NCBI RefSeq assembly: GCF_014638095.1
Contig: NZ_BMFH01000001.1
Coordinates: forward strand, 186,001-250,000
DNA: 64,000 bases
Source of the DNA: Muriicola marianensis
GTDB lineage: Bacteria; Bacteroidota; Bacteroidia; Flavobacteriales; Flavobacteriaceae
Direction of reading: 5' to 3'
Shown here: positions 52,487-64,000 of the stretch, piece by piece
Layout of the letters: every line of letters starts with the position of its first letter
Position numbering within the stretch: position 1 is the first letter of the stretch
Program-made: the position numbers and the translations under genes
Notes under the pieces: model-generated
Seen by the model: the letters and a program-made list of their open reading frames with translations, nothing else
The model's database searches: none
What the model was told of the DNA's origin: nothing

Positions 52487-53770
52487 CTATTGCATTTCCC
52501 GGGCTATGGCCTGGACCTCGTCTAGCACCCTCAGCAGGTTTTCACCCCACAATTTGGCAATGTCTTCCTCTGAATACCCCCTCCGGACCAACTCATGAGT
52601 AACATTGAAGGTCTCAGAAGCGTCAGACCAGCCTTCGATTCCTCCGCCTCCGTCAAAATCGGAGCTGATCCCCACGTGGTCGATCCCTATCAGGCCAACC
52701 ATATAGTCGATGTGATCCACAAAGTCCTTTATATCTACTGGCGGTGGTGCATCAGGTCTTGTTGATGCGATTTCTTTAGCCAGGGAAACTATCCGGGGAT
52801 AGTATTCCAGATACTCTTCCCTCTGATCCGGCGGAAGGTTTCTGTATTCCCTTCTGTTGTACCAGGTGATTCCAAGGGAATCTGCCACCTGTTCGTGCAG
52901 CTTTTCCATGTAAGCCCTCCTGGCCTTGTCTTTCTCTGTGTTTAGATAGGAACTGAATGCTACGGTCTGCACCACTCCTCCGTTCTCCTTCATCCACATA
53001 AGTTGTTCATCATCCAGATTCCTGCTGTGGTCACACAAGGCGCGCGCAGAGGAGTGGGATGCGATGATAGGTGCTTTCGTCAGGGCGATGATCTGTTCCA
53101 TTGAACTCTTGGCGGGATGGGATACGTCGATCATAATACCCAGCCTATTCATCTCATATACAGCATTTTTACCCAGTTCACTTAAACCATTATGTAACCA
53201 AATACTATCCGCTTCACCCGTATTGGAATCCGCGAACTGACTGTGCCCGTTATGGGAGAGGGAGACGTATCGTGCTCCAAGGTCGTGGTACCTTTTGAAA
53301 TTCTCCAGGTCTTCTCCCATGGGATAAGCATTTTCAACCCCTATCATGGCAACGAGTTTCCCTTCGGAGTGCAACTTCCTTACGTCATCTGAATTCAGGG
53401 CCAGGCCAATTTGGTCCGGGGCGATCTCCTCGCAAAGGCGATGAATAGCATCGAACTTAGCCATGGCGTTCTTCTCAGCCCGCTTGTAAGCCGTTGGGGT
53501 CAGGGAATCCTGCCCAGTGTAGACGATCAGCCAGGCGACATCTAGACCCCCTTCTTTCATCTTTGGCAGATTTACCTGAGTCTCCAACCTTTGGGTGTAG
53601 TTTACGCTGTCAGTGAAATTACGAACATTGATGTCGTCGTGAGTGTCGATGGTGATCACTTTTGCGTGGATACGTTCCGCTTTTTCGCGCAAAGCATCTG
53701 CATTGTCCTTCTCGGCCTCTCCACAGGCGATCATCGATAAAAAACAAAAAAACAGGGTGAAATACTTCAT
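52487..53770 (-). CDS. Membrane dipeptidase (peptidase M19), lipoprotein
   Basis: 427 residues from the ATG at 53770; a longer frame to 53812 lacks a proper signal peptide. Signal peptide with lipobox FLSMIAC, so lipidated and exported. The M19 zinc site is visible: HxD in TIDTHDDINV, then Glu in GVENAYPMGEDL, His in IDVSHPAKS and SHSSARALCDHSRNL, and the C-terminal GISSDFDGGGGI. Cleaves dipeptides, often with dehydro- or D-amino acids. Divergent from the hybrid kinase operon across 129 nt. Confidence 0.93.
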   Translation of the reverse strand: MKYFTLFFCFLSMIACGEAEKDNADALREKAERIHAKVITIDTHDDINVRNFTDSVNYTQRLETQVNLPKMKEGGLDVAWLIVYTGQDSLTPTAYKRAEKNAMAKFDAIHRLCEEIAPDQIGLALNSDDVRKLHSEGKLVAMIGVENAYPMGEDLENFKRYHDLGARYVSLSHNGHSQFADSNTGEADSIWLHNGLSELGKNAVYEMNRLGIMIDVSHPAKSSMEQIIALTKAPIIASHSSARALCDHSRNLDDEQLMWMKENGGVVQTVAFSSYLNTEKDKARRAYMEKLHEQVADSLGITWYNRREYRNLPPDQREEYLEYYPRIVSLAKEIASTRPDAPPPVDIKDFVDHIDYMVGLIGIDHVGISSDFDGGGGIEGWSDASETFNVTHELVRRGYSEEDIAKLWGENLLRVLDEVQAIAREMQ

Positions 53771-53899
53771 CAGGTACGAATTAGACCTACAAATAAAGCA
53801 TTTTGACAACACATTCTACCCTGTAGATAACATTTAATTGTCCTGCCCCCTGTAAATCGGGATTTTAGTGAAGAAATCTAAACCACTTAAGACCCGATC

Positions 53900-55636
53900 T
53901 TGAAATCAAAAAACCTACTCACGCAGATCTCCGACCTGGAACTCGCCCTGAACAACTTTTCATTTGAGGAACTGAGCACCGAAGAAGCCGGACGCTTAAA
54001 AAAATCGTTCGACCATTTCAAGAAAGAATTGGAAACGAAGATCTGGGGACACGAACCCAATCAACCCGAACCGGAGCATCTGCCGGCAAAAAAAACGGAA
54101 TCACACCTGATAGCGAAGGTCAGCCACGAAGTGAGAACCCCCTTGAACGGGATCATGGGCTTTGCAGACCTCCTGAAGGAAAGTGACCTGAACCCCGCTC
54201 AGGAAGAGCAGGTCAACGCCATCCTGTCGGCCTCGCGATCCCTGCTTGAAATCATCAATGAACTTCTGGAATACTCAAAGCTCGAAGCGGGTTCCGAGGA
54301 ATTCAAAGTGGTCTCGTTCAACTTCCACAACCTGATCGCAGAAGTCACCTACCTCTGTGAAACGCTCATAGTCGACAAGAAAATTTCCCTGGAGGTGAAG
54401 ACCGACCCGAATATCCCGAATTTCCTGCTGGGAGATCCCTCCAAGCTCACCCAGGTATTGCTTAATCTCCTGGGAAATGCCATCAAGTTCTCAGACCAGG
54501 GAAAGGTGATGCTTGAGACCACCCTGAAGAAGATAGAAAAAGGGCAGGCATATCTCAAGTTTGGGATCACTGACACCGGCATTGGAATACCCGGGGAAGA
54601 CCTTGACCATATTTTCGATGCCTTCAGACAGGCAGGACAGCACACCTTCTCCAAATACGGAGGGGCAGGACTTGGCTTGAGTATCGTCAAGCAGATCGTA
54701 GACCGTTTGGGCGGGACCATTGCAGTTCAGAGCAAGGTGGATGAAGGAACGAAATTCGACCTTACCCTGGCTTTTGAAGTAGGGCAGGAAGAGAATCCCA
54801 AAAAGGCCGAAACAGAAAAATTGCCTGAAAAGGACATCCGCACCCTCAATGTACTGGTCTTTGAAGATAATCCCCTGAATCAGTGGTTGATAAAGAAACG
54901 GCTCAGAAACTGGGGATGCACCCACTTTGTCACCGAACATGCGGTGGAGGGGTTAAAAGTCCTGGAAGAAGAAAACATCCATGTGGTCTTTATGGATCTG
55001 CACATGCCGGTGGTAGATGGATATGAGATCACCCGAAAGATAAGGGCTTCTCAGGATCCGCGTATCTCCGGAGTACCGGTCATCGCCCTGACTGCTGATT
55101 TTTCGGTGCATGACAGGGAGAAGGCTGAGGCCGATGGAATAGACGATTTTATCTTAAAACCGTATACCCCTGAGGAATTACTGGACAAACTGATGGAATA
55201 CGGATTTGCTGAGTCCGGAAAGTCTTCTTTGGAGAAGGCTGCGACAAAAGAAAACAAAGCCCCTGCTCAGGATGGCAATTTTCAAATCGACCTGACGGGC
55301 ATGCTGGAAGACTGTATGGGGGAGGTAGATATGTTAGAAGAGTTGATTGGACTATTCAAGGGCAACATCCTGGAATTCATAGGCCGTGCAAAACTCCACT
55401 TAAAAAATCGCGATCAGGAACAACTGCGATTTGCTGCCCATAAAATGAAATCTGGCCTGGCGATGATTCAGGCTGAAAACCTGCTCATCCTGGTGAGACA
55501 AATCCAGGACCATTGCCTGAATGATCAAGATTTTGATCGGATGCAGTACCTGTACGACCGGTTCGTGAAAGAATATCCCATGGTGGAGTTTGCGGTGGAC
55601 AGGGAGTTGACACGCCTAAAAAAAGAAAACGATTAA
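53900..55636 (+). CDS. Hybrid sensor histidine kinase with receiver and Hpt domains
   Basis: 578 residues, soluble: no membrane segment and no recognised sensor domain, only a charged helical N-terminus (1-70). HisKA with His76 (SHEVRTPLNG), HATPase_c (about 180-295; LGNAIKF, DTGIGI, GGAGLGLSIV), a receiver domain (about 315-430) with Asp366 (FMDLHMPVVDG), and a C-terminal Hpt domain with His514 (AHKMKSGLA). All four phosphorelay residues are intact, so it can pass phosphate to a separate receiver, most simply the response regulator 4 nt downstream. The start is TTG. First gene of the 53.9-63.2 kb operon. Confidence 0.93.
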   Translation: MKSKNLLTQISDLELALNNFSFEELSTEEAGRLKKSFDHFKKELETKIWGHEPNQPEPEHLPAKKTESHLIAKVSHEVRTPLNGIMGFADLLKESDLNPAQEEQVNAILSASRSLLEIINELLEYSKLEAGSEEFKVVSFNFHNLIAEVTYLCETLIVDKKISLEVKTDPNIPNFLLGDPSKLTQVLLNLLGNAIKFSDQGKVMLETTLKKIEKGQAYLKFGITDTGIGIPGEDLDHIFDAFRQAGQHTFSKYGGAGLGLSIVKQIVDRLGGTIAVQSKVDEGTKFDLTLAFEVGQEENPKKAETEKLPEKDIRTLNVLVFEDNPLNQWLIKKRLRNWGCTHFVTEHAVEGLKVLEEENIHVVFMDLHMPVVDGYEITRKIRASQDPRISGVPVIALTADFSVHDREKAEADGIDDFILKPYTPEELLDKLMEYGFAESGKSSLEKAATKENKAPAQDGNFQIDLTGMLEDCMGEVDMLEELIGLFKGNILEFIGRAKLHLKNRDQEQLRFAAHKMKSGLAMIQAENLLILVRQIQDHCLNDQDFDRMQYLYDRFVKEYPMVEFAVDRELTRLKKEND

Positions 55637-55640
55637 CAAG

Positions 55641-56006
55641 ATGAAAAAGATCCTGCTCGCCGATGACGACGAATTGCTGGCTTCCCTTTTAAACTACCGG
55701 CTAGACAAGGCCGGATACAAGGTACACTGGTCCTGTGACGGGAGAGATGTAAAGCTGGAATTGGAAAAGGAGATCCCGGACATCATAGTCAGCGACATTA
55801 TGATGCCCTATTTCTCAGGGCTTGAACTGGTTGATTATGTGAGAAATACGCTCCAGTCTAAAGTTCCCATCATCATCATCTCCTCTGCCGGTAATGAAGA
55901 GAATGTCCTCTCTGCATTTGAACTGGGAGCCAATGATTTCATTTCAAAACCTGTGAGTCCGGCCGAGTTATTGGTCCGGGTGACACGGGAACTCAACAAA
56001 GCCTGA
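55641..56006 (+). CDS. Stand-alone response regulator (receiver domain only)
   Basis: 121 residues, a single receiver domain with Asp52 (IVSDIMMPYFSG), acidic pocket Asp8-Asp10 and the conserved Lys in FISKPVSP. No output domain, so it acts by protein-protein contact, like CheY or Spo0F. It lies 4 nt after the hybrid kinase and 35 nt before the HEAT-repeat protein gene, making a binding role on the HEAT-repeat protein or the glycosyltransferase likely. Confidence 0.95.
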   Translation: MKKILLADDDELLASLLNYRLDKAGYKVHWSCDGRDVKLELEKEIPDIIVSDIMMPYFSGLELVDYVRNTLQSKVPIIIISSAGNEENVLSAFELGANDFISKPVSPAELLVRVTRELNKA

Positions 56007-56041
56007 TATTCATTAAAACAAAGATTACATATCACGTTTCT

Positions 56042-58171
56042 ATGCTGCTTAGCATCCCAGAGATCCATACGGATCTTTTGTGGGATTTAAGCGTCTTGTT
56101 TGGAAGCCTGTGTATTCTTTATTTCAGTTTTATTTTCTTTTTCAGGAACAGGCTTTCTGCCAAATCCCGAAACATCAGTGATCGGAGGAAAGAACTCACC
56201 CCTGTAATCAGCAACTTCCTCTTTTATGGGGAGGAGGCCAGCAAGGAGGAGAAATACGAGTATGTCGGACTTAAAGTCGAGATGCGTGAATTCCTCAAAG
56301 ACCCTATAAACAGGAGTATCCTGAAGGATATATTGCTGGACCTGCAGCGTGATCTTACCGGGGATTCCCGAAACCGACTCCTTTCTATGTACAAGGATTT
56401 CGATTTGCATTTGGATGCTATGGCCAAATTGAACAGCCGGAGGTGGGAAGTGGTGACCAAGGGTATCGTAGAGCTTACCCAAATGCAGGTAGTAGAGGCC
56501 TATACGGCAATACGAAAGTTCATTAACCACAGGAAAAACGTCATCAGGAGACATGCCCAGATCGCTACTGTTTCCCTTAAGCACGAGGGGATCGGTCATT
56601 TTCTGGATTCTAACAGATACCCGATTTCAGAATGGCAGCAGATCAAGATCCTGGAAGTACTTCGGGAAAAAGAAGATTTTATCCCTCCAAATTTCGGCGT
56701 GTGGCTGATGTCGGCCAATAAAGATGTCGTCCTTTTTGCGCTCCGCCTGATCAGGTACTACAACCAGACAGATGCCAATACCTCCGTTACGGAATTGCTT
56801 AAACACAGGGATGAGGAGATCAAACAGGCTGCTATTGACTGCATCAAGGAATTTGGTATCACCGATGCCATCCCGACACTGATGGCCGCTTTTTCCAGGG
56901 CTAAAAGGGACACCAGAATCCTGATCCTGGACGCCATAGGTACCATTGGCAAAGAAGAACACATACCCTTCCTGCGGGAAGTACACGAAAAAGTGTCGAA
57001 TTTCAATGTCAGAAGCAAGGCCCTGGCTGCTGTCAATACTATTGCTCCGGGTACCATTTTGCCATTCAAAGACCTCGACCCGCTTATCAAGCCTGAATCA
57101 CAGACGCTGATAGCAGAGGAAGCGAATGAAGCATCCGGAGATACTAAGGAAATACCAACCGAAGTTGAAACAGAAAAGATTGAAGTTGCTCCGGAAGCCG
57201 ACCGGGATTTGGTTGCTCCGACTGATGTGACTGCTGAAGAAGATATTGTAGTGAGCGGGGAACACAGTGAACTGTTTTATGAGGATCTGGAGGTCTTTGA
57301 CCATTGTTTTATGGAAGAGCTCAATGAGATCCTCGAAGGCAGGAATAAGGATGACGAAGAAGATCATCCCGGATTCCTGCCTCTCGATTTTTTACCACTT
57401 GTTACCGAAAAACCAACCGAGATGGACAAGAAGAAACCAAAGAAAAAAGCTAGGAAGCGGCTGTGGCAGCTTCGGGTGAATTATGAGGAAGTGCACCCCG
57501 ATGCCGAGTTCAGAAAAGAACTGGAGGATATCCTTAGTAGGGTAGAAGTACAGAATCCTGAAGGAGATACGGAAGTTGAATATCTGAATTTCAATTTTCT
57601 TCCGTTTGTGGTCGGCAATGAGCCTGAAGGAGATGCATCTGAGCTACCTGAAGCAGAGGAACAGGAATCCCCGGAGGAGGAAATAACACCGGCCCCCGCT
57701 TCTGAAACACCCATGGAAAAGGTGCAGGTAGTAGACATGATTGAGGCTGAGAACACCTGTTCGCTGGTCGATTGGGAAGCCCTTCAAAATGAGGTGGCGG
57801 AAGATCTATCCGATAATAGCCAGGAAGAAGTCCGGCAAGTAGAAAACAAGACAGTGGATGAAACCCCAGGCCACAGCATTTTTGAAGAATTGTTCAGCAA
57901 GTGCGACGAGGACTCTAAATTGATCCTTCTCAGGGAGATCCCCGAACTGGGAGATCACAGGGAACTCTCGTTTCTCGATGCCCTGAAGAAAGAGCCCAGC
58001 ACCAGGGTTCGTAAAATGGCTTCAGATGTAAAGAGAAAACTCCAGAAAAGATTGGAAGCAGAAGCCGGGAAGCAGGAGCAAAAGCAATCCCTTATCCAGT
58101 GGGAAAAGAGTCCTCAACCCGGTGATCTGCTGGAATTTGACCTGGAAGAACTGAAAAAACAAGGGAAGTAA
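56042..58171 (+). CDS. HEAT-repeat membrane protein with acidic disordered region
   Basis: 709 residues. An N-terminal membrane helix (about 16-36) is followed by basic residues and a helical region with HEAT/armadillo-like repeats (about 80-330; e.g. TSVTELLKHRDEEIKQAAIDCI and the similar AIPTLMAAFSRAKRDTRILIL). A long acidic, Glu/Pro-rich low-complexity stretch spans about 350-620, then a final HEAT-like unit (about 640-690, IFEELFSKCDEDSKLILLREI). It probably works as a scaffold at the inner membrane for the kinase/regulator pair upstream and the glycosyltransferase 2 nt downstream. No enzymatic motif. Confidence 0.85.
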   Translation: MLLSIPEIHTDLLWDLSVLFGSLCILYFSFIFFFRNRLSAKSRNISDRRKELTPVISNFLFYGEEASKEEKYEYVGLKVEMREFLKDPINRSILKDILLDLQRDLTGDSRNRLLSMYKDFDLHLDAMAKLNSRRWEVVTKGIVELTQMQVVEAYTAIRKFINHRKNVIRRHAQIATVSLKHEGIGHFLDSNRYPISEWQQIKILEVLREKEDFIPPNFGVWLMSANKDVVLFALRLIRYYNQTDANTSVTELLKHRDEEIKQAAIDCIKEFGITDAIPTLMAAFSRAKRDTRILILDAIGTIGKEEHIPFLREVHEKVSNFNVRSKALAAVNTIAPGTILPFKDLDPLIKPESQTLIAEEANEASGDTKEIPTEVETEKIEVAPEADRDLVAPTDVTAEEDIVVSGEHSELFYEDLEVFDHCFMEELNEILEGRNKDDEEDHPGFLPLDFLPLVTEKPTEMDKKKPKKKARKRLWQLRVNYEEVHPDAEFRKELEDILSRVEVQNPEGDTEVEYLNFNFLPFVVGNEPEGDASELPEAEEQESPEEEITPAPASETPMEKVQVVDMIEAENTCSLVDWEALQNEVAEDLSDNSQEEVRQVENKTVDETPGHSIFEELFSKCDEDSKLILLREIPELGDHRELSFLDALKKEPSTRVRKMASDVKRKLQKRLEAEAGKQEQKQSLIQWEKSPQPGDLLEFDLEELKKQGK

Positions 58172-58173
58172 TC

Positions 58174-59601
58174 ATGGATAACGGCGTATTCAATGTAATC
58201 CTGGAGTACCTGAACATCGTCTTTCTGGTGTTCTCAGGCATGCTGTTTACGCTCTATTTACTGATGGCCTATTTCGCCACGCGAAATTCCATCCACTACA
58301 AGAACAAGAATAGTTTCGGGAATATCACCAAGACCCTGGGTTCGCCCCTGGCACCGGGCATTACCATCATAGCCCCGGCCTATAACGAAGGGCTCACCAT
58401 TGTGGAGAACGTTCGGTCCCTTTTGTCCCTTCAATATGTAAATTACGAGGTGATGGTGGTCAACGATGGGAGCAAGGACGATACGCTCCAAAAACTCATC
58501 GACGCCTATCATCTGGAGAAGATCGACAGGGAGATAGATCCTGACATCAAATCGAAACCTATACGGGGAATCTACAAATCTACCCAAAGGTCATTTGCAA
58601 AACTAACCGTGGTCGACAAGGCCAACGGGGGCAAGTCCGATGCCCTCAATGCAGGGATCTTCCTCTCAGAGAACAAGTATGTGGGCTGTATTGATGTGGA
58701 TTGCCTGATCGTTCCCGAAGCCCTGCTGCACGTAGTAAAATCATTCTATCAGCATTCAGAGAAAAGGGTAATTGCCGTAGGAGGTGTGATCCGGGTAGCC
58801 AACTCCTGCAAGATCTCAGGAGGTACCCTGGAAGAAATAAGGTTGCCGAAGAACTGGCTCGCGAGATTTCAACTCCTGGAATATACCAGGTCCTTCCTGC
58901 TGGGAAGGATGGCGTGGGGGAGGTTAGACAGCCTGTTGATCATCTCAGGGGCCTTTGGATTCTTCGACAGGGAGATTGCCCTGGCTGTTGGAGGATACGA
59001 TACCAACACAGTAGGGGAGGATATGGAGATCATTTTCAGGATGAGACGATATATGCATGACAGGAAGGAACCCTATCACGTGGCCTACATCCCGGATCCA
59101 TTATGCTGGACAGAAGTCCCCGAGAGTCTTAAGATCTTTATAAATCAGCGCGATCGCTGGTCGAGAGGCAACCTGGAAACCCTGAGTACCCACAAGGATA
59201 TGTTCTTTAACCCCAGGTACGGTCGACTCGGATTTTTGAGCTACCCCTACTGGTTCTTTTACGAGTGGTTGGCTCCATTGCTCGAATTCATCGGATGCCT
59301 GGCTGTAATCCTCTTCCTGTATCTCGGGATCCTGAACTGGGATTTCTTTATCGCCATCACGATCACCATCTACAGTTTCTCTATCATGTTCTCCTTTTAC
59401 GCTATTCTGTGGGAGGTCTATTCATATAACCAGTATTCACGGACAAAAGATATTCTGACGATGATGCTGGCGGCCATATTGGAGCCCTTGTTCTTCCATC
59501 CGCTCGTAGTGTGGTCCTCGGTAAGGGGTAATTATAAAAAGTTGTTTAAGATCAGGTCCGGATGGGGATCACAGGTCAGAAAAGGATTTGCCAAGGCATA
59601 A
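58174..59601 (+). CDS. Processive family 2 glycosyltransferase, membrane
   Basis: 475 residues. An N-terminal membrane helix (about 11-33), a GT-A catalytic domain and three or so C-terminal membrane helices (about 385-450). Catalytic motifs are complete: PAYNE (68-72), NDGS (97-100), DVD (174-176), GED (281-283) and QRDRW (325-329). The Q-x-x-R-W motif marks processive polysaccharide synthases such as those for cellulose, hyaluronan or poly-N-acetylglucosamine. PgaC-like size fits a poly-GlcNAc type product, but the sugar cannot be told. Packed between the HEAT-repeat gene (2 nt) and the sulfatase-fold gene (3 nt). Confidence 0.92.
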   Translation: MDNGVFNVILEYLNIVFLVFSGMLFTLYLLMAYFATRNSIHYKNKNSFGNITKTLGSPLAPGITIIAPAYNEGLTIVENVRSLLSLQYVNYEVMVVNDGSKDDTLQKLIDAYHLEKIDREIDPDIKSKPIRGIYKSTQRSFAKLTVVDKANGGKSDALNAGIFLSENKYVGCIDVDCLIVPEALLHVVKSFYQHSEKRVIAVGGVIRVANSCKISGGTLEEIRLPKNWLARFQLLEYTRSFLLGRMAWGRLDSLLIISGAFGFFDREIALAVGGYDTNTVGEDMEIIFRMRRYMHDRKEPYHVAYIPDPLCWTEVPESLKIFINQRDRWSRGNLETLSTHKDMFFNPRYGRLGFLSYPYWFFYEWLAPLLEFIGCLAVILFLYLGILNWDFFIAITITIYSFSIMFSFYAILWEVYSYNQYSRTKDILTMMLAAILEPLFFHPLVVWSSVRGNYKKLFKIRSGWGSQVRKGFAKA

Positions 59602-59604
59602 GCT

Positions 59605-61980
59605 ATGCAGACAGAAATACACATACCGGTCAAAAGAAGGGATCTTCGGGATTTCATCAGGCTGATAATGGCATTTTTTCTCTGCCTGATCGCGAGCGCC
59701 TTATACCAGAACATCACCTTGTACAGTGCAGGGGTGCTCGACAGTGTATTTAACAAAAGTCTGCTACTGCTCGTGGTACATCATTTGGGATTTGTGTCGC
59801 TTTCCGCCCTGTTCCTAGTATTCCCATATAAATTTCTCGAGCAGGTAAAAGCCAATGCCGGGTTTAAAATGGTCTCCCTTTGCCTGGTAATATTGCTGGG
59901 GGCAGAAGGTCTTTTGATCAAGTACTATGTGGACAACTACGAGATCCTGGGTGCAGGGTTTGTTGAGCGAATTGAGGCTCTGGGAGGTTGGTCCTTCCTG
60001 TATTATTCCCCTGTATTTGTCTTCTTTGCTGTAGTTCTCCTGTACTTGTCTTACCGGATCACAGCGAACGCATATACCCTGGTTAATCGGATGTATCCGT
60101 TTACTCTGATTCTCTTCAGCCTTTTCCTGGCAACTCTTATCACCCGGAAGAACCCGGTGAACGAGAATAAGACTCAGCACCTGATCTACCATCAATTTGA
60201 AGAATTTACTGATTTCAACAAATACGACGGTGAGGCGGAATACCCCTTGCTGAGACGATATGAACCAGAATCCGAACTCGCCTCCTATTTGGCCCTGAAA
60301 GAAGAAAGCCCAAACCTGGTATTCATCGTCATGGATGGGGTGGGATCTGACTTTGTTGGTGAAAAAGCCCCATTTAAGGAGTTCATGCCGTTCGTGAATT
60401 CTCTGGTAAACACTTCCCTGTACTGGCCACACAGCCTGAGTAACACAGGGGAACCTGTAGCCAGTATACCATCTATTTTCGGATCTCTTCCCTCCGGGGA
60501 AGAAGGATTTACCAACCTCGAATTCCTTCCGGAAAGTTATACCATGTTCGATCTGCTCAATGACAATGGATACCAGACATCCTTTTATTTCGGGGGAAAT
60601 ATATCCCTGGAAAACCTTGGCAAATTCTTGCATAAGGAAGAGGTGGGACTTATTTCGGGTCGAAAGGCGTTCGGTCCGAGATATACAGCTCAGGAGGAAG
60701 ATGCCGCAGGGGTCTCCCTGGGTTATCCCGATGCAGAGCTATTCCGCAAATGGTTTGACGATTTCACCAGCGCAGACCGACCCAGACTCGATGCTTTTCT
60801 TACGCTTAGCACACGGAGCCCGTTCCATATTCCCTCTCAGGATGAGTATCGGAAAAAGGTGGAAGAGATTTCGGAAAACAGCCGGATGTCTGATCGAAAC
60901 AAAAGACTGATCCGGAAAAACCGGGAGGTTTTTGCGAGCCTGCTGTACACGGATCAGGCCGTGCAAACCTTTTTGGAAGGTTACAGGCGTAAGGCCGAAT
61001 TCTACAATACTATTTTTGTCATTACTGGTACTCATAACCTAAGTGAACTCCCCCAAAAGGATTATTTGGGCCGTTACAGAGTTCCCCTTATCCTCTACAG
61101 TCCCCTGTTGAAGTCCCCTGCACGTATCAATTCGCTTGTCGCCCATACCGACATACTTCCGGAATTGGCCGGGCTTCTCAATTCTCAATACCACTTTACT
61201 ATGCCGGACAACGTATCATGGCTGGGGGAAGGCCTGGTGCACAAAGGATTCTTTAAAAAAGACAAGGTCATTCCGCTGTATCGCCATCGGGGTAACCTGC
61301 AGGAATACATCAGGGGTAATATATGCCTCTCCGGTAATTCGCTTTATGGAATTGGAGCTGATCTCAGTCTGTACGAACCAAAGGAGGTAGAGGGCAAGGA
61401 TGAATTGATCGCTGACTTTAGGAAATTCAGGGCTGTCAACCGGTATGTCACCCGAAATGATAAACTCACTCCCGGGAACCTGCTGGCCAAGGACACCCTT
61501 AATCCCGAAAAGGAAAGATCTGAAATGGTATGGATCAACAGTGTGTTTAACAGCGACGATTATGACAATGCTTATAAAACTGCCAGAGACCTGGCGATCT
61601 CAGGTGACAGGGACCGGGCCTTGTTGCTGTGTGAACACATATTAGAGGAAGTACCCGGACATGCCGATACCGAAATCCTCAAAGGAAGGATCTACGCCTG
61701 GAATAAACAATACGATCAGGCTGCTAAGCTTCTGGAAAAAACGGTTAAGAAATACCCGGTATATGCAGATGCCTATTCGGCTTTGCTCGACGTGTATTTC
61801 TGGTCCGATACCAATTTCAAGGCCCTGGATCTCAAATCTGCCATAATCAAGAACCGGATTTACAACGAGGAACTAAAGAGTAAGATCCGAAGGGCTGAAG
61901 AAAAAATGAAAAAGGAAAAAACCCTTTTTAACGATCATAATCTCGGATACCTGAATTTTGAAGACGATGGATATGAATAA
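59605..61980 (+). CDS. Alkaline-phosphatase/LtaS-fold membrane protein with TPR tail
   Basis: 791 residues. Five N-terminal membrane helices (about 17-180) are followed by a periplasmic sulfatase-fold domain (about 220-560): FIVMDGVGSDF metal-ligand strand and SNTGEPVASIPSIFGSLP nucleophile region (likely Thr). The late metal motif, normally GDH, reads ITGTHNLSEL, while VAHTDILPEL is normal. The C-terminus (about 640-790) has TPR-like helices (ALLLCEHILEEVPGHADTEI, AAKLLEKTVKKYPVYADAYS). Likely adds or removes a phospho- or sulfo-group on the glycan made by the upstream synthase, if still catalytic. Overlaps the next gene by 23 nt. Confidence 0.8.
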   Translation: MQTEIHIPVKRRDLRDFIRLIMAFFLCLIASALYQNITLYSAGVLDSVFNKSLLLLVVHHLGFVSLSALFLVFPYKFLEQVKANAGFKMVSLCLVILLGAEGLLIKYYVDNYEILGAGFVERIEALGGWSFLYYSPVFVFFAVVLLYLSYRITANAYTLVNRMYPFTLILFSLFLATLITRKNPVNENKTQHLIYHQFEEFTDFNKYDGEAEYPLLRRYEPESELASYLALKEESPNLVFIVMDGVGSDFVGEKAPFKEFMPFVNSLVNTSLYWPHSLSNTGEPVASIPSIFGSLPSGEEGFTNLEFLPESYTMFDLLNDNGYQTSFYFGGNISLENLGKFLHKEEVGLISGRKAFGPRYTAQEEDAAGVSLGYPDAELFRKWFDDFTSADRPRLDAFLTLSTRSPFHIPSQDEYRKKVEEISENSRMSDRNKRLIRKNREVFASLLYTDQAVQTFLEGYRRKAEFYNTIFVITGTHNLSELPQKDYLGRYRVPLILYSPLLKSPARINSLVAHTDILPELAGLLNSQYHFTMPDNVSWLGEGLVHKGFFKKDKVIPLYRHRGNLQEYIRGNICLSGNSLYGIGADLSLYEPKEVEGKDELIADFRKFRAVNRYVTRNDKLTPGNLLAKDTLNPEKERSEMVWINSVFNSDDYDNAYKTARDLAISGDRDRALLLCEHILEEVPGHADTEILKGRIYAWNKQYDQAAKLLEKTVKKYPVYADAYSALLDVYFWSDTNFKALDLKSAIIKNRIYNEELKSKIRRAEEKMKKEKTLFNDHNLGYLNFEDDGYE

Positions 61981-63208
61981 CGGACGATGCATAATATTAT
62001 CTCTTCTTCTTGGGGTTTTCATTCTTTATTTCCCGCAAAACCTCCTTGGGCAGAGGCGTGCGTATCCCAAAGATCCTGACATGTCCCTAAAAAGGGCTAT
62101 GGCCCTTGCTGGCGACGGAAAGCGAGAGGAGGCTCGGGACACCCTGCGGAATATTCTCGCACACTATCCGGAGTACACGGATGTAAAGAACCTTTTAGCC
62201 AAAACCTTTAGTTGGGACGGTGATTATGAAGAGGCGCGCAAACATTTTAACAGGATCACCTCCGCCGAAAAGTCGAACAAAGAAGTCTGGGAAGCTGCCA
62301 TTCGCAATGAGATGTATGCACAGAACAAGCATACCGCCCTGGGTCTGGCGAACAAAGCACTTATTTACTTGCCCGAAGATGCGGATATCATCGAACTAAG
62401 GAACCGTATCCTGGAATCCTGGGATGGAAACGGAACCACTTCAACTGTAGCAACAGAGACGGAAACACCGGCCATTGACCGAAACTTTGTAGCCCTTTTC
62501 AGTTCGGCGGATGTTTTCGATGTGGTCTTTGACCCCATGTACTATTCAGGGGTGGAATTTAACCTGGTGACTGGACTGGGCAAGATCTTACCCAGGATCA
62601 ATTACAGCAACAGGTTTGGTATCGATGGTATACAGTATGAGATCGACCTGTATCCCAAGTTTTCTAAATCGGTTTATGCCTATCTGAACTACGGGTACAG
62701 TCGGTCCGAAATTTACCCGGAACACAGGGTAGGAGGGGATCTTTATGTGAATCTTCCAAAAGGAGTGGAAACCTCGCTTGGAGTCAGGTATTTGTCCTTT
62801 ACAGACAGTGATGTGACCATTTTTACCGGGTCCGCGGGCTTTTACAAGGGTAATTATTATTTTTCTTTGAGGCCGTACCTAACACCGAGGAATAACAGTA
62901 CCCTGGGGATTTCAGGGGTTCTCACGGCCCGGAGGTACCTGAAGGATGCCAATAACTATATCGGATTGAATGCGGGAATGGGATTTATGCCAGAATTCAG
63001 GCAGTTCAGAGCCAACAGTGTCCTGATCGCAGAGACCCAATTGTATGTGGAATCCCAACAACTCGTGATGGAATACCAGTTCTCCTTCAAATCTAATCCA
63101 TCCCTTTACAGGGCTCAACTGGGACTCACCAGACAGGAATTTGTCTTTGCCCCCGACAATTACTTTTGGGCAATAACAGCAGGTCTCAGATACCAAACCG
63201 GCCTATGA
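61958..63208 (+). CDS. TPR plus YaiO-like outer membrane beta-barrel protein
   Basis: 416 residues. Signal peptide (about 10-31, ending LLGQ), then TPR-like helices (about 42-155; SLKRAMALAGDGKREEARDTL, KHTALGLANKALIYLPEDADI) and a C-terminal beta-barrel domain (about 175-416) rich in alternating aromatic strands, resembling YaiO-type outer membrane proteins. Ends in a Leu after aromatic residues. The TPR-barrel layout recalls PgaA/BcsC-like export or binding of polysaccharides. ATG at 61958, 61967 or 61973 are all possible; each starts inside the upstream gene. Confidence 0.82.
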   Translation: MKTMDMNNGRCIILSLLLGVFILYFPQNLLGQRRAYPKDPDMSLKRAMALAGDGKREEARDTLRNILAHYPEYTDVKNLLAKTFSWDGDYEEARKHFNRITSAEKSNKEVWEAAIRNEMYAQNKHTALGLANKALIYLPEDADIIELRNRILESWDGNGTTSTVATETETPAIDRNFVALFSSADVFDVVFDPMYYSGVEFNLVTGLGKILPRINYSNRFGIDGIQYEIDLYPKFSKSVYAYLNYGYSRSEIYPEHRVGGDLYVNLPKGVETSLGVRYLSFTDSDVTIFTGSAGFYKGNYYFSLRPYLTPRNNSTLGISGVLTARRYLKDANNYIGLNAGMGFMPEFRQFRANSVLIAETQLYVESQQLVMEYQFSFKSNPSLYRAQLGLTRQEFVFAPDNYFWAITAGLRYQTGL

Positions 63209-63274
63209 TCCCACAATAAGCACCTCAAAAAAAACGTTATATACAACAATAATACATCCATACACCACAAACAA

Positions 63275-63305
63275 TTGGCAGAACTGATCAGAAAAAATAA
63301 GTTTA
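63275..63305 (+). promoter_or_regulatory. Possible promoter of the microprotein pair
   Basis: TTG (63275-63277), a 20-nt spacer and TAAGTTTA (63298-63305), seven of eight bases of the Bacteroidota TTG-N17-23-TAnnTTTG pattern, 47 nt before the first microprotein ATG. The 144-nt gap after the barrel gene otherwise shows no structure, so the small genes could be transcribed on their own as well as by readthrough. Confidence 0.35.
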
Positions 63306-63352
63306 TGTAGTAAATATTTAGAGTCCCAGATCTCTACTTAAACCAGACGACC

Positions 63353-63451
63353 ATGTTATACGATACCTACGGAGAGGAATACCTGAACTTCCTCAAAGAT
63401 CTGAACGAAATTTTGAGTGTAAATGAATTGGCCGAACTCGATTATCTCTAG
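63353..63451 (+). CDS. 32-residue microprotein A
   Basis: ATG to TAG frame of 33 codons. Its product shares the core YLNF-(L/I)-(K/E)-DLNEIL with the microprotein 31 nt downstream, at the same distance from the start, while the ends differ. Conserved protein sequence between two short neighbouring frames is strong evidence that both are translated. It is acidic (about eight Asp/Glu, one Lys), has no signal peptide or Cys, and should form an amphipathic helix. It lies between the envelope polysaccharide operon and a terminator. No family recognised; possible roles are a regulator or adaptor of the upstream membrane complex or a modified-peptide precursor. Confidence 0.65.
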   Translation: MLYDTYGEEYLNFLKDLNEILSVNELAELDYL

Positions 63452-63482
63452 TGGAGTTCTGCAACCCTAAAACCCCAAGCTT

Positions 63483-63584
63483 ATGGCAAATCCAAATTAT
63501 GACAACGCAGCGTATCTGAATTTCATTGAGGACCTCAATGAGATCCTGAAAGACTTTGACATCAGCAGACTTAGCTGTTCTTAG
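63483..63584 (+). CDS. 33-residue microprotein B
   Basis: ATG to TAG frame of 34 codons, paralogue of microprotein A: both have Y-x3-YLNF-x2-DLNEIL near residues 6-22. The C-terminus differs and ends SRLSCS, with one cysteine. Net acidic, no signal peptide. The pair forms a small tandem unit (31-nt spacer) directly before the palindromic terminator at 63610. See microprotein A for possible roles. Confidence 0.65.
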   Translation: MANPNYDNAAYLNFIEDLNEILKDFDISRLSCS

Positions 63585-63609
63585 TGTTTTAGTGTATATT
63601 TAAAAAAGA

Positions 63610-63635
63610 AAAAGGAAGCCGATCGGCTTCCTTTT
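63610..63635. terminator. Terminator between microproteins and rpoD-type gene
   Basis: Perfect palindrome AAAAGGAAGCCGA/TCGGCTTCCTTTT (63610-63622 and 63623-63635), which folds as a long stem with a tight loop and is flanked by A and T runs. It can stop the plus-strand microprotein transcript and the minus-strand sigma factor transcript, whose stop codon is at 63657. Confidence 0.85.
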
Positions 63636-63656
63636 GTTATTGTTACTCTTTCGGTA

Positions 63657-64000
63657 TCAACCCAAATAGGCTTTCAGGAGTTTGCTCCTGGTATTGTGCC
63701 TCAACTTGCGAATCGCTTTCTCCCGGATCTGCCGTACCCGTTCCCTGGTAAGATCAAATGTCTGTCCGATCTCTGCCAGGGTCATGGATTGCTGATCTCC
63801 GATCCCGTAGTAGAGTTTTACTACATCCGCTTCCCGTGGGGACAAGGTATCGAGGGCTCTGTTTATTTCCGTATTGAGGGATTGCTGCATGAGTCCTTTA
63901 TCCGGCTTGGGAGATTCCCCGGATCGCATCACGTCGTATAGATTGGAATCCTCTCCTTCCTTAAGCGGAGCATCCATGGAAATATGTCTTCCCGAGTTTT
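63657..64000 (-). CDS. rpoD: RNA polymerase sigma-70 factor, RpoD type, C-terminal part (cut by right edge)
   Basis: The frame continues past the window end: the bases before the internal Met read GRHISMDAPL, the region 3 motif of primary sigma factors. Region 4 follows with RALDTLSPREADVVKLYYGI (4.1), then the -35-binding helix-turn-helix MTLAEIGQTFDLTRERVRQIREKAIRKLRH (4.2). It ends in KAYLG. Bacteroidota carry a short RpoD lacking region 1.1, and this sequence fits it; it would recognise the TTTG/TAnnTTTG promoters seen in this window. Confidence 0.93.
   Translation of the reverse strand, partial: NSGRHISMDAPLKEGEDSNLYDVMRSGESPKPDKGLMQQSLNTEINRALDTLSPREADVVKLYYGIGDQQSMTLAEIGQTFDLTRERVRQIREKAIRKLRHNTRSKLLKAYLG

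Follow-up and report, generated by a model that had tools for sequence, protein, structure and literature searches.

Many synthase-dependent polysaccharide systems are known through c-di-GMP. Type II Bcs of Escherichia coli (BcsRQABEFG and BcsC) makes pEtN-cellulose and comprises a membrane GT2 synthase, an outer-membrane exporter (BcsC), a membrane partner that transfers a phospho-group (BcsG) and accessory regulators in the cytosol that are held on the synthase (PMC11470070). Counterparts of these parts were found in a six-gene locus (P1–P6) of the window, i.e., the whole stretch of 64,000 nucleotides from Muriicola marianensis that was analysed here. The locus differs from Bcs in lacking PilZ and GGDEF, with a receiver and a HEAT protein in place of c-di-GMP sensing, in a membrane protein, P5, that best matches LtaS/OpgB-like proteins and is catalytically degenerate, and in a barrel of the YaiO type. 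Similarly, the PNAG systems (PgaABCD/IcaA) share a TPR-barrel exporter with the locus, and the best NCBIfam match of the glycosyltransferase P4 was PgaC_IcaA; however, the scores lay below the curated cut-offs (138.6 bits against 422.3 for the glycosyltransferase and 13.6 against 366.65 for the porin), and no PgaB-type deacetylase was found among the six genes. P5 shares its fold and its membrane-plus-periplasmic-domain layout with LtaS, OpgB and PbgA/YejM, but differs from them in its TPR tail, in standing in an operon with a glycosyltransferase and, in Muriicola, in its lost catalytic residues. The closest regulatory likeness is to Myxococcus xanthus, in which the receiver-only protein EpsW is reported to stimulate the polysaccharide enzyme EpsZ and is proposed to activate synthesis by contact; EpsZ is, unlike P4, a phosphoglycosyl transferase of a Wzx/Wzy pathway, and a HEAT protein such as P3 is not mentioned in the abstract (PMC12802240). 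The view of an earlier note that no described system has the same set of genes provisionally stands, since neither such a system nor a characterised locus with the same gene order was found in the literature searched, most subscription journals being outside it.

The six open reading frames occupy positions 53900–63208, all on the plus strand of a 3.03 Mb genome, with successive gaps of 4, 35, 2 and 3 nt and an overlap between the last pair, P5 and P6. P1 (53900–55636) begins with a TTG codon and is a soluble hybrid histidine kinase with HisKA, HATPase_c, receiver and Hpt domains (Pfam), with neither a transmembrane segment nor a recognised sensor domain. P2 (55641–56006) is a single-domain response regulator (Response_reg alone in Pfam) with intact phospho-acceptor residues, and the residues required for phosphotransfer were seen in P1 and P2 (SHEVRTP, FMDLHMP, AHKMKSG and SDIMMP). 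P3 (56042–58171) has an N-terminal membrane helix and HEAT repeats (HEAT_2, Pfam); its AlphaFold model consists of a long N-terminal helix that leads into a HEAT solenoid (residues ~10–334), a disordered acidic linker and a second, small C-terminal HEAT domain (~613–688). Basic residues follow the membrane helix, which by the positive-inside rule suggests that the HEAT part is cytosolic. P4 (58174–59601) is an inner-membrane GT2 glycosyltransferase of the processive type, with the D, DxD, ED and QxxRW motifs (the last as QRDRW). P5 (59605–61980) is a membrane protein of the LtaS/OpgB-type alkaline-phosphatase superfamily with C-terminal TPRs (Sulfatase and TPR_19, Pfam), and P6 (61958–63208) joins TPRs to a YaiO outer-membrane beta-barrel (212 bits in Pfam, 184.7 bits in NCBIfam), presumed to be the export pore. 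The composition and coordinates described in the earlier note were thus borne out by the reading frames and Pfam, and its claim of phosphorelay-coupled glycan synthesis and export was supported in part, in that it fits the protein families found. The locus probably makes and exports a surface polysaccharide, a role well supported by the families to which its proteins belong.

The recurrence of the locus was evaluated in relatives. All six genes were found in the same order in the same-genus genomes where the contig permits (G002, G004, G005 and G006), with identities within the genus of 93–97% for P2, 87–96% for P4, 65–77% for P5 and 55–81% for P1, so that conservation is tighter for the receiver than for its kinase. 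The glycosyltransferase alignment was scanned against 84,980 species genomes, and in the 80 named Bacteroidota loci, which are the best of 499 relatives, the HEAT gene lies directly 5' of the glycosyltransferase in at least 74 and the response regulator precedes the HEAT gene in at least 66, with median gaps of 11.5 nt (regulator to HEAT) and −3 nt (HEAT to glycosyltransferase). Several exceptions to this order arise from contigs that are cut or start calls that overlap; a few of the named loci have YaiO between regulator and HEAT gene. P5 is adjacent or fused to the glycosyltransferase in 64 of the 80, the two forming one polypeptide in nine, and YaiO lies within 6 kb in 69; the P5 family was present in 92 of 397 sampled family genomes. 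The kinase gene encodes a full hybrid in Muriicola and in the greater part of its clade, is long or absent elsewhere, and is Hpt-only in Zobellia and two further genomes (G009 and G019); no kinase match was found upstream of the regulator in L040 and L041. Regulator and kinase thus do not always adjoin, which counts against the mechanism favoured below. Judged from these comparisons, the constant core of the locus is the order regulator–HEAT–glycosyltransferase, and the kinase is its variable part. The co-occurrence expected across Bacteroidota therefore held for the neighbourhood and the core, not for all six genes, as the kinase varies and several lineages have an inactive sulfatase domain or none. 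Within the clade, relatedness accounts for much of the co-occurrence. Nevertheless, the presence of the arrangement in all well-assembled same-genus genomes and of the core across the phylum argues against a chance neighbourhood.

No GGDEF protein was found in any of the 21 genomes searched, that of M. marianensis included (the control set was matched in 8 of 14), so the locus does not group with c-di-GMP-activated synthases of the Bcs/Alg/Pga type, for which GGDEF-made c-di-GMP is expected in the genome; additionally, no PilZ domain was reported by Pfam in the six proteins. P2, as a receiver-only regulator with an intact phospho-acceptor, has one of the features that EpsW-like control calls for. 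The locus is probably switched by protein phosphorylation instead of c-di-GMP, and we favour, with some reserve, a synthase-dependent polysaccharide system under post-translational control by a phosphorelay acting through the receiver and the HEAT protein. In this mechanism, a signal would drive the cytosolic kinase P1, and phosphate would pass from the receiver of P1 to its Hpt domain and on to P2, which in its phosphorylated form would contact and act on the membrane-anchored P3. P3 would then gate P4, which would polymerise sugar and move the polymer across the inner membrane, and the TPRs of P5 and P6 would guide the polymer to the YaiO barrel, with P5 as an ancestral decorator of the polymer that in Muriicola may now be a pseudoenzyme. 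Control by direct contact is plausible, having a precedent in EpsW/EpsZ (PMC12802240), and is strengthened by the 93–97% identity of the receiver, the fixed regulator–HEAT–glycosyltransferase order and the absence of GGDEF proteins. The genomes examined are free of GGDEF yet keep such synthases, and the receiver–HEAT module offers a concrete and testable answer to how these may be switched.

Two features that were absent from the earlier note are the degenerate catalytic site of P5 and a pair of micropeptide genes (63353–63451 and 63483–63584). The predicted model of P5 (mean pLDDT of 86) has the alkaline-phosphatase-superfamily fold, with a Vibrio family member, LtaP and LtaS as best fold matches, PbgA also being matched, and TM-scores to the target of up to 0.74. 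Most lineages among the 76 P5 sequences compared retain E, T/S, H, D, H at the active site, whereas in the P5 of the window these positions read D, P, R, T, H, without the catalytic metal ligands and Thr nucleophile, and in Muriicola generally D, P or S, R or K, T or S, H. The site is also degraded in Robiginitalea, Eudoraea, Zeaxanthinibacter, a Cellulophaga and some Maribacter; on the glycosyltransferase tree, about four changes between active and inactive P5 are needed, of which well-supported branches force only one. Elsewhere, some loci have a greatly reduced P5 or one that was not found. In Muriicola, P5 presumably survives as a pseudoenzyme with a structural role.

A gene for a secreted ILEI and GDPD protein, lying between YaiO and pep1 on the opposite strand and convergent with the operon, was found in relatives with an intact P5 (at 15124–16437 of L082, in 12 other clade loci and in L038). 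It is carried by 13 of 15 clade loci with intact P5 and by 0 of 17 with degenerate P5 (Fisher p of 3e-7, uncorrected for phylogeny; at most three independent pairs are available, which cannot reach significance). Strong matches (E < 1e-140) numbered 24 over 397 genomes, all 24 in genomes bearing P5 and five of them on another contig or far from it. The P5 DNA was examined for 23 of these 24 genomes, and every motif that was caught within P5 was intact, the pattern search having missed some motifs in some genomes or matched another stretch. GDPDs act on glycerophosphodiesters, which points to an ancestral phosphoglycerol decoration that would have been lost in Muriicola. Since relatives with intact catalytic residues usually carry ILEI-GDPD, it is suggested that P5 was ancestrally a transferase of phosphoglycerol, or of a similar phospho-group, that decorated the polymer. 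The loss of P5 activity and the absence of ILEI-GDPD from the same loci thereby provide a testable guess at polymer chemistry.

The micropeptide genes are flanked by the operon on one side and by a convergent RpoD-like sigma gene on the other, and encode, on the plus strand, pep1 (63353–63451; 32 aa, MLYDTYGEEYLNFLKDLNEILSVNELAELDYL) and its paralogue pep2 (63483–63584; 33 aa, MANPNYDNAAYLNFIEDLNEILKDFDISRLSCS), followed 3' of pep2 by a terminator-like hairpin with a T run (63614–63636, plus strand), the hairpin being conserved in the genus. All 32 loci of the Flavobacteriaceae clade whose downstream region was examined have pep1, and 25 have pep2 (by pattern); neither was found in 45 loci outside the clade, and pep1 was detected in 75 of 397 family genomes (E < 1e-11). 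The sequences compared gave a mean pS of 0.86 and a mean pN of 0.084, with 10–18 synonymous and 0–2 nonsynonymous changes within the genus when the window is taken as reference, a substitution pattern that marks both micropeptides as being under strong purifying selection. They form a conserved family with no match above the cut-off in Pfam or NCBIfam. A known RNA as the source of the conserved downstream block was ruled out, as an Rfam search of 53300–64000 gave no match and the substitutions are those of coding sequence. Upstream of the micropeptides, many loci share a TATGTTTA-type element and a CCCAAATC leader, which suggests a promoter of their own. Upstream of pep1, the 12-bp near-palindrome GTTATATACAAC (63236–63247) does not vary within the genus and, in its extended form, has a single copy in the genome; as a general operator it was set aside because it is absent in other genera.

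The micropeptides share the helix motif F..[DE]L[NDE][DE]IL with the disordered linker of P3, where its two copies, FMEELNEIL (57308–57334, plus strand; residues 423–431, in predicted helix 410–435) and FRKELEDIL (57509–57535, plus strand; residues 490–498, in predicted helix 488–499), lie in the two short helices predicted by AlphaFold within the linker. Long frames totalling 643,424 residues contained the motif 14 times, all 14 in HEAT proteins by the printed contexts, and its 72 matches in short frames were counted in bulk; the pattern was chosen after the sequences had been seen, which makes the sharing a lead rather than a test. It is a tentative and rather doubtful idea that the micropeptides regulate the HEAT protein by mimicking its linker helix and competing for, or bridging, the same partner; if true, a peptide-mimicry switch would be joined to a phosphorelay controlling a polysaccharide synthase. 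As a strict part of the synthesis machine the micropeptides were ruled out, since nine pep1-bearing genomes have no P4 homologue (E ≤ 1e-40). P1 or P3 remnants lie beside the peptides in six of these (G081, G233, G242, G255, G259 and G413) and a P1-like kinase adjoins pep1 in G088, while G108 and G318 have pep1 without P1 or P3 remnants; the peptides thus seem tied more to the regulatory part than to synthesis. Similarly, seven loci (L205, L209, L210, L211, L213, L214 and L221) have lost the synthesis genes and retain pep1 and pep2, in most cases alongside the dipeptidase and RpoD genes of the flanks and remnants of kinase/Hpt or HEAT genes that are degenerate, and, on gene content, are natural deletions of the operon.

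The same P4-less genomes bear on the possibility that the phosphorelay is merely co-located, with phosphorylated P2 acting on a target, DNA-binding or otherwise, that is unlinked to the locus, and the synthesis genes being controlled by expression only. The P1 and C-terminal P3 remnants that persist with the micropeptides in the six genomes named above favour it, as they indicate that regulatory proteins can be kept without the synthase and that the regulatory part may act on something else; the Hpt protein left in G259 and G413 lacks its His, and these remnants therefore no longer relay phosphate. We consider this explanation unlikely, given that the regulator–HEAT–glycosyltransferase order is kept in families far outside the clade of Muriicola and that P2 is far more conserved than P1. 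The low PgaC/IcaA score of P4 was counted against the reading as a synthase system, and a distinctly improbable alternative is that P4 is no polymerase and adds a sugar to a lipid carrier, lipid or protein, with P5 and P6 serving glycolipid decoration and transport. The glycosyltransferase profile of P4 overlaps single-sugar transferase families, its best PDB matches cover the N-terminal glycosyltransferase core only, and the proteins that P5 resembles, LtaS/OpgB and PbgA, are linked to lipids or glucans; on the other side stand the QxxRW motif and C-terminal membrane region of P4, as in processive synthases, and the TPR and outer-membrane barrel downstream, as in exporters of the BcsC/PgaA type.

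That P5 of Muriicola is still an enzyme through other residues, instead of the pseudoenzyme preferred here, is very unlikely. In its favour, two His residues have been preserved, one of them a metal ligand, the predicted fold is of high confidence, and P5 is conserved at the within-genus identity given above. Against it, the metal Glu has become Asp, the nucleophile Thr Pro or Ser, the active-site His Arg or Lys and the metal Asp Thr or Ser, and the related loci L087, L206, L207, L212 and L217 either lack the sulfatase domain or have a much shorter P5.

In Maribacter litopenaei (L097), P1, P2, P5, P6 and RpoD all appear split into fragments, which seems better put down to poor sequence quality than to decay. 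Long HEAT proteins (639–1187 aa) occur only in the clade L073–L107, those elsewhere being short (273–420 aa), and the disordered linker of the long proteins carries a recurrent short motif, (Y)LPLDFLPLV or DFLPIV.
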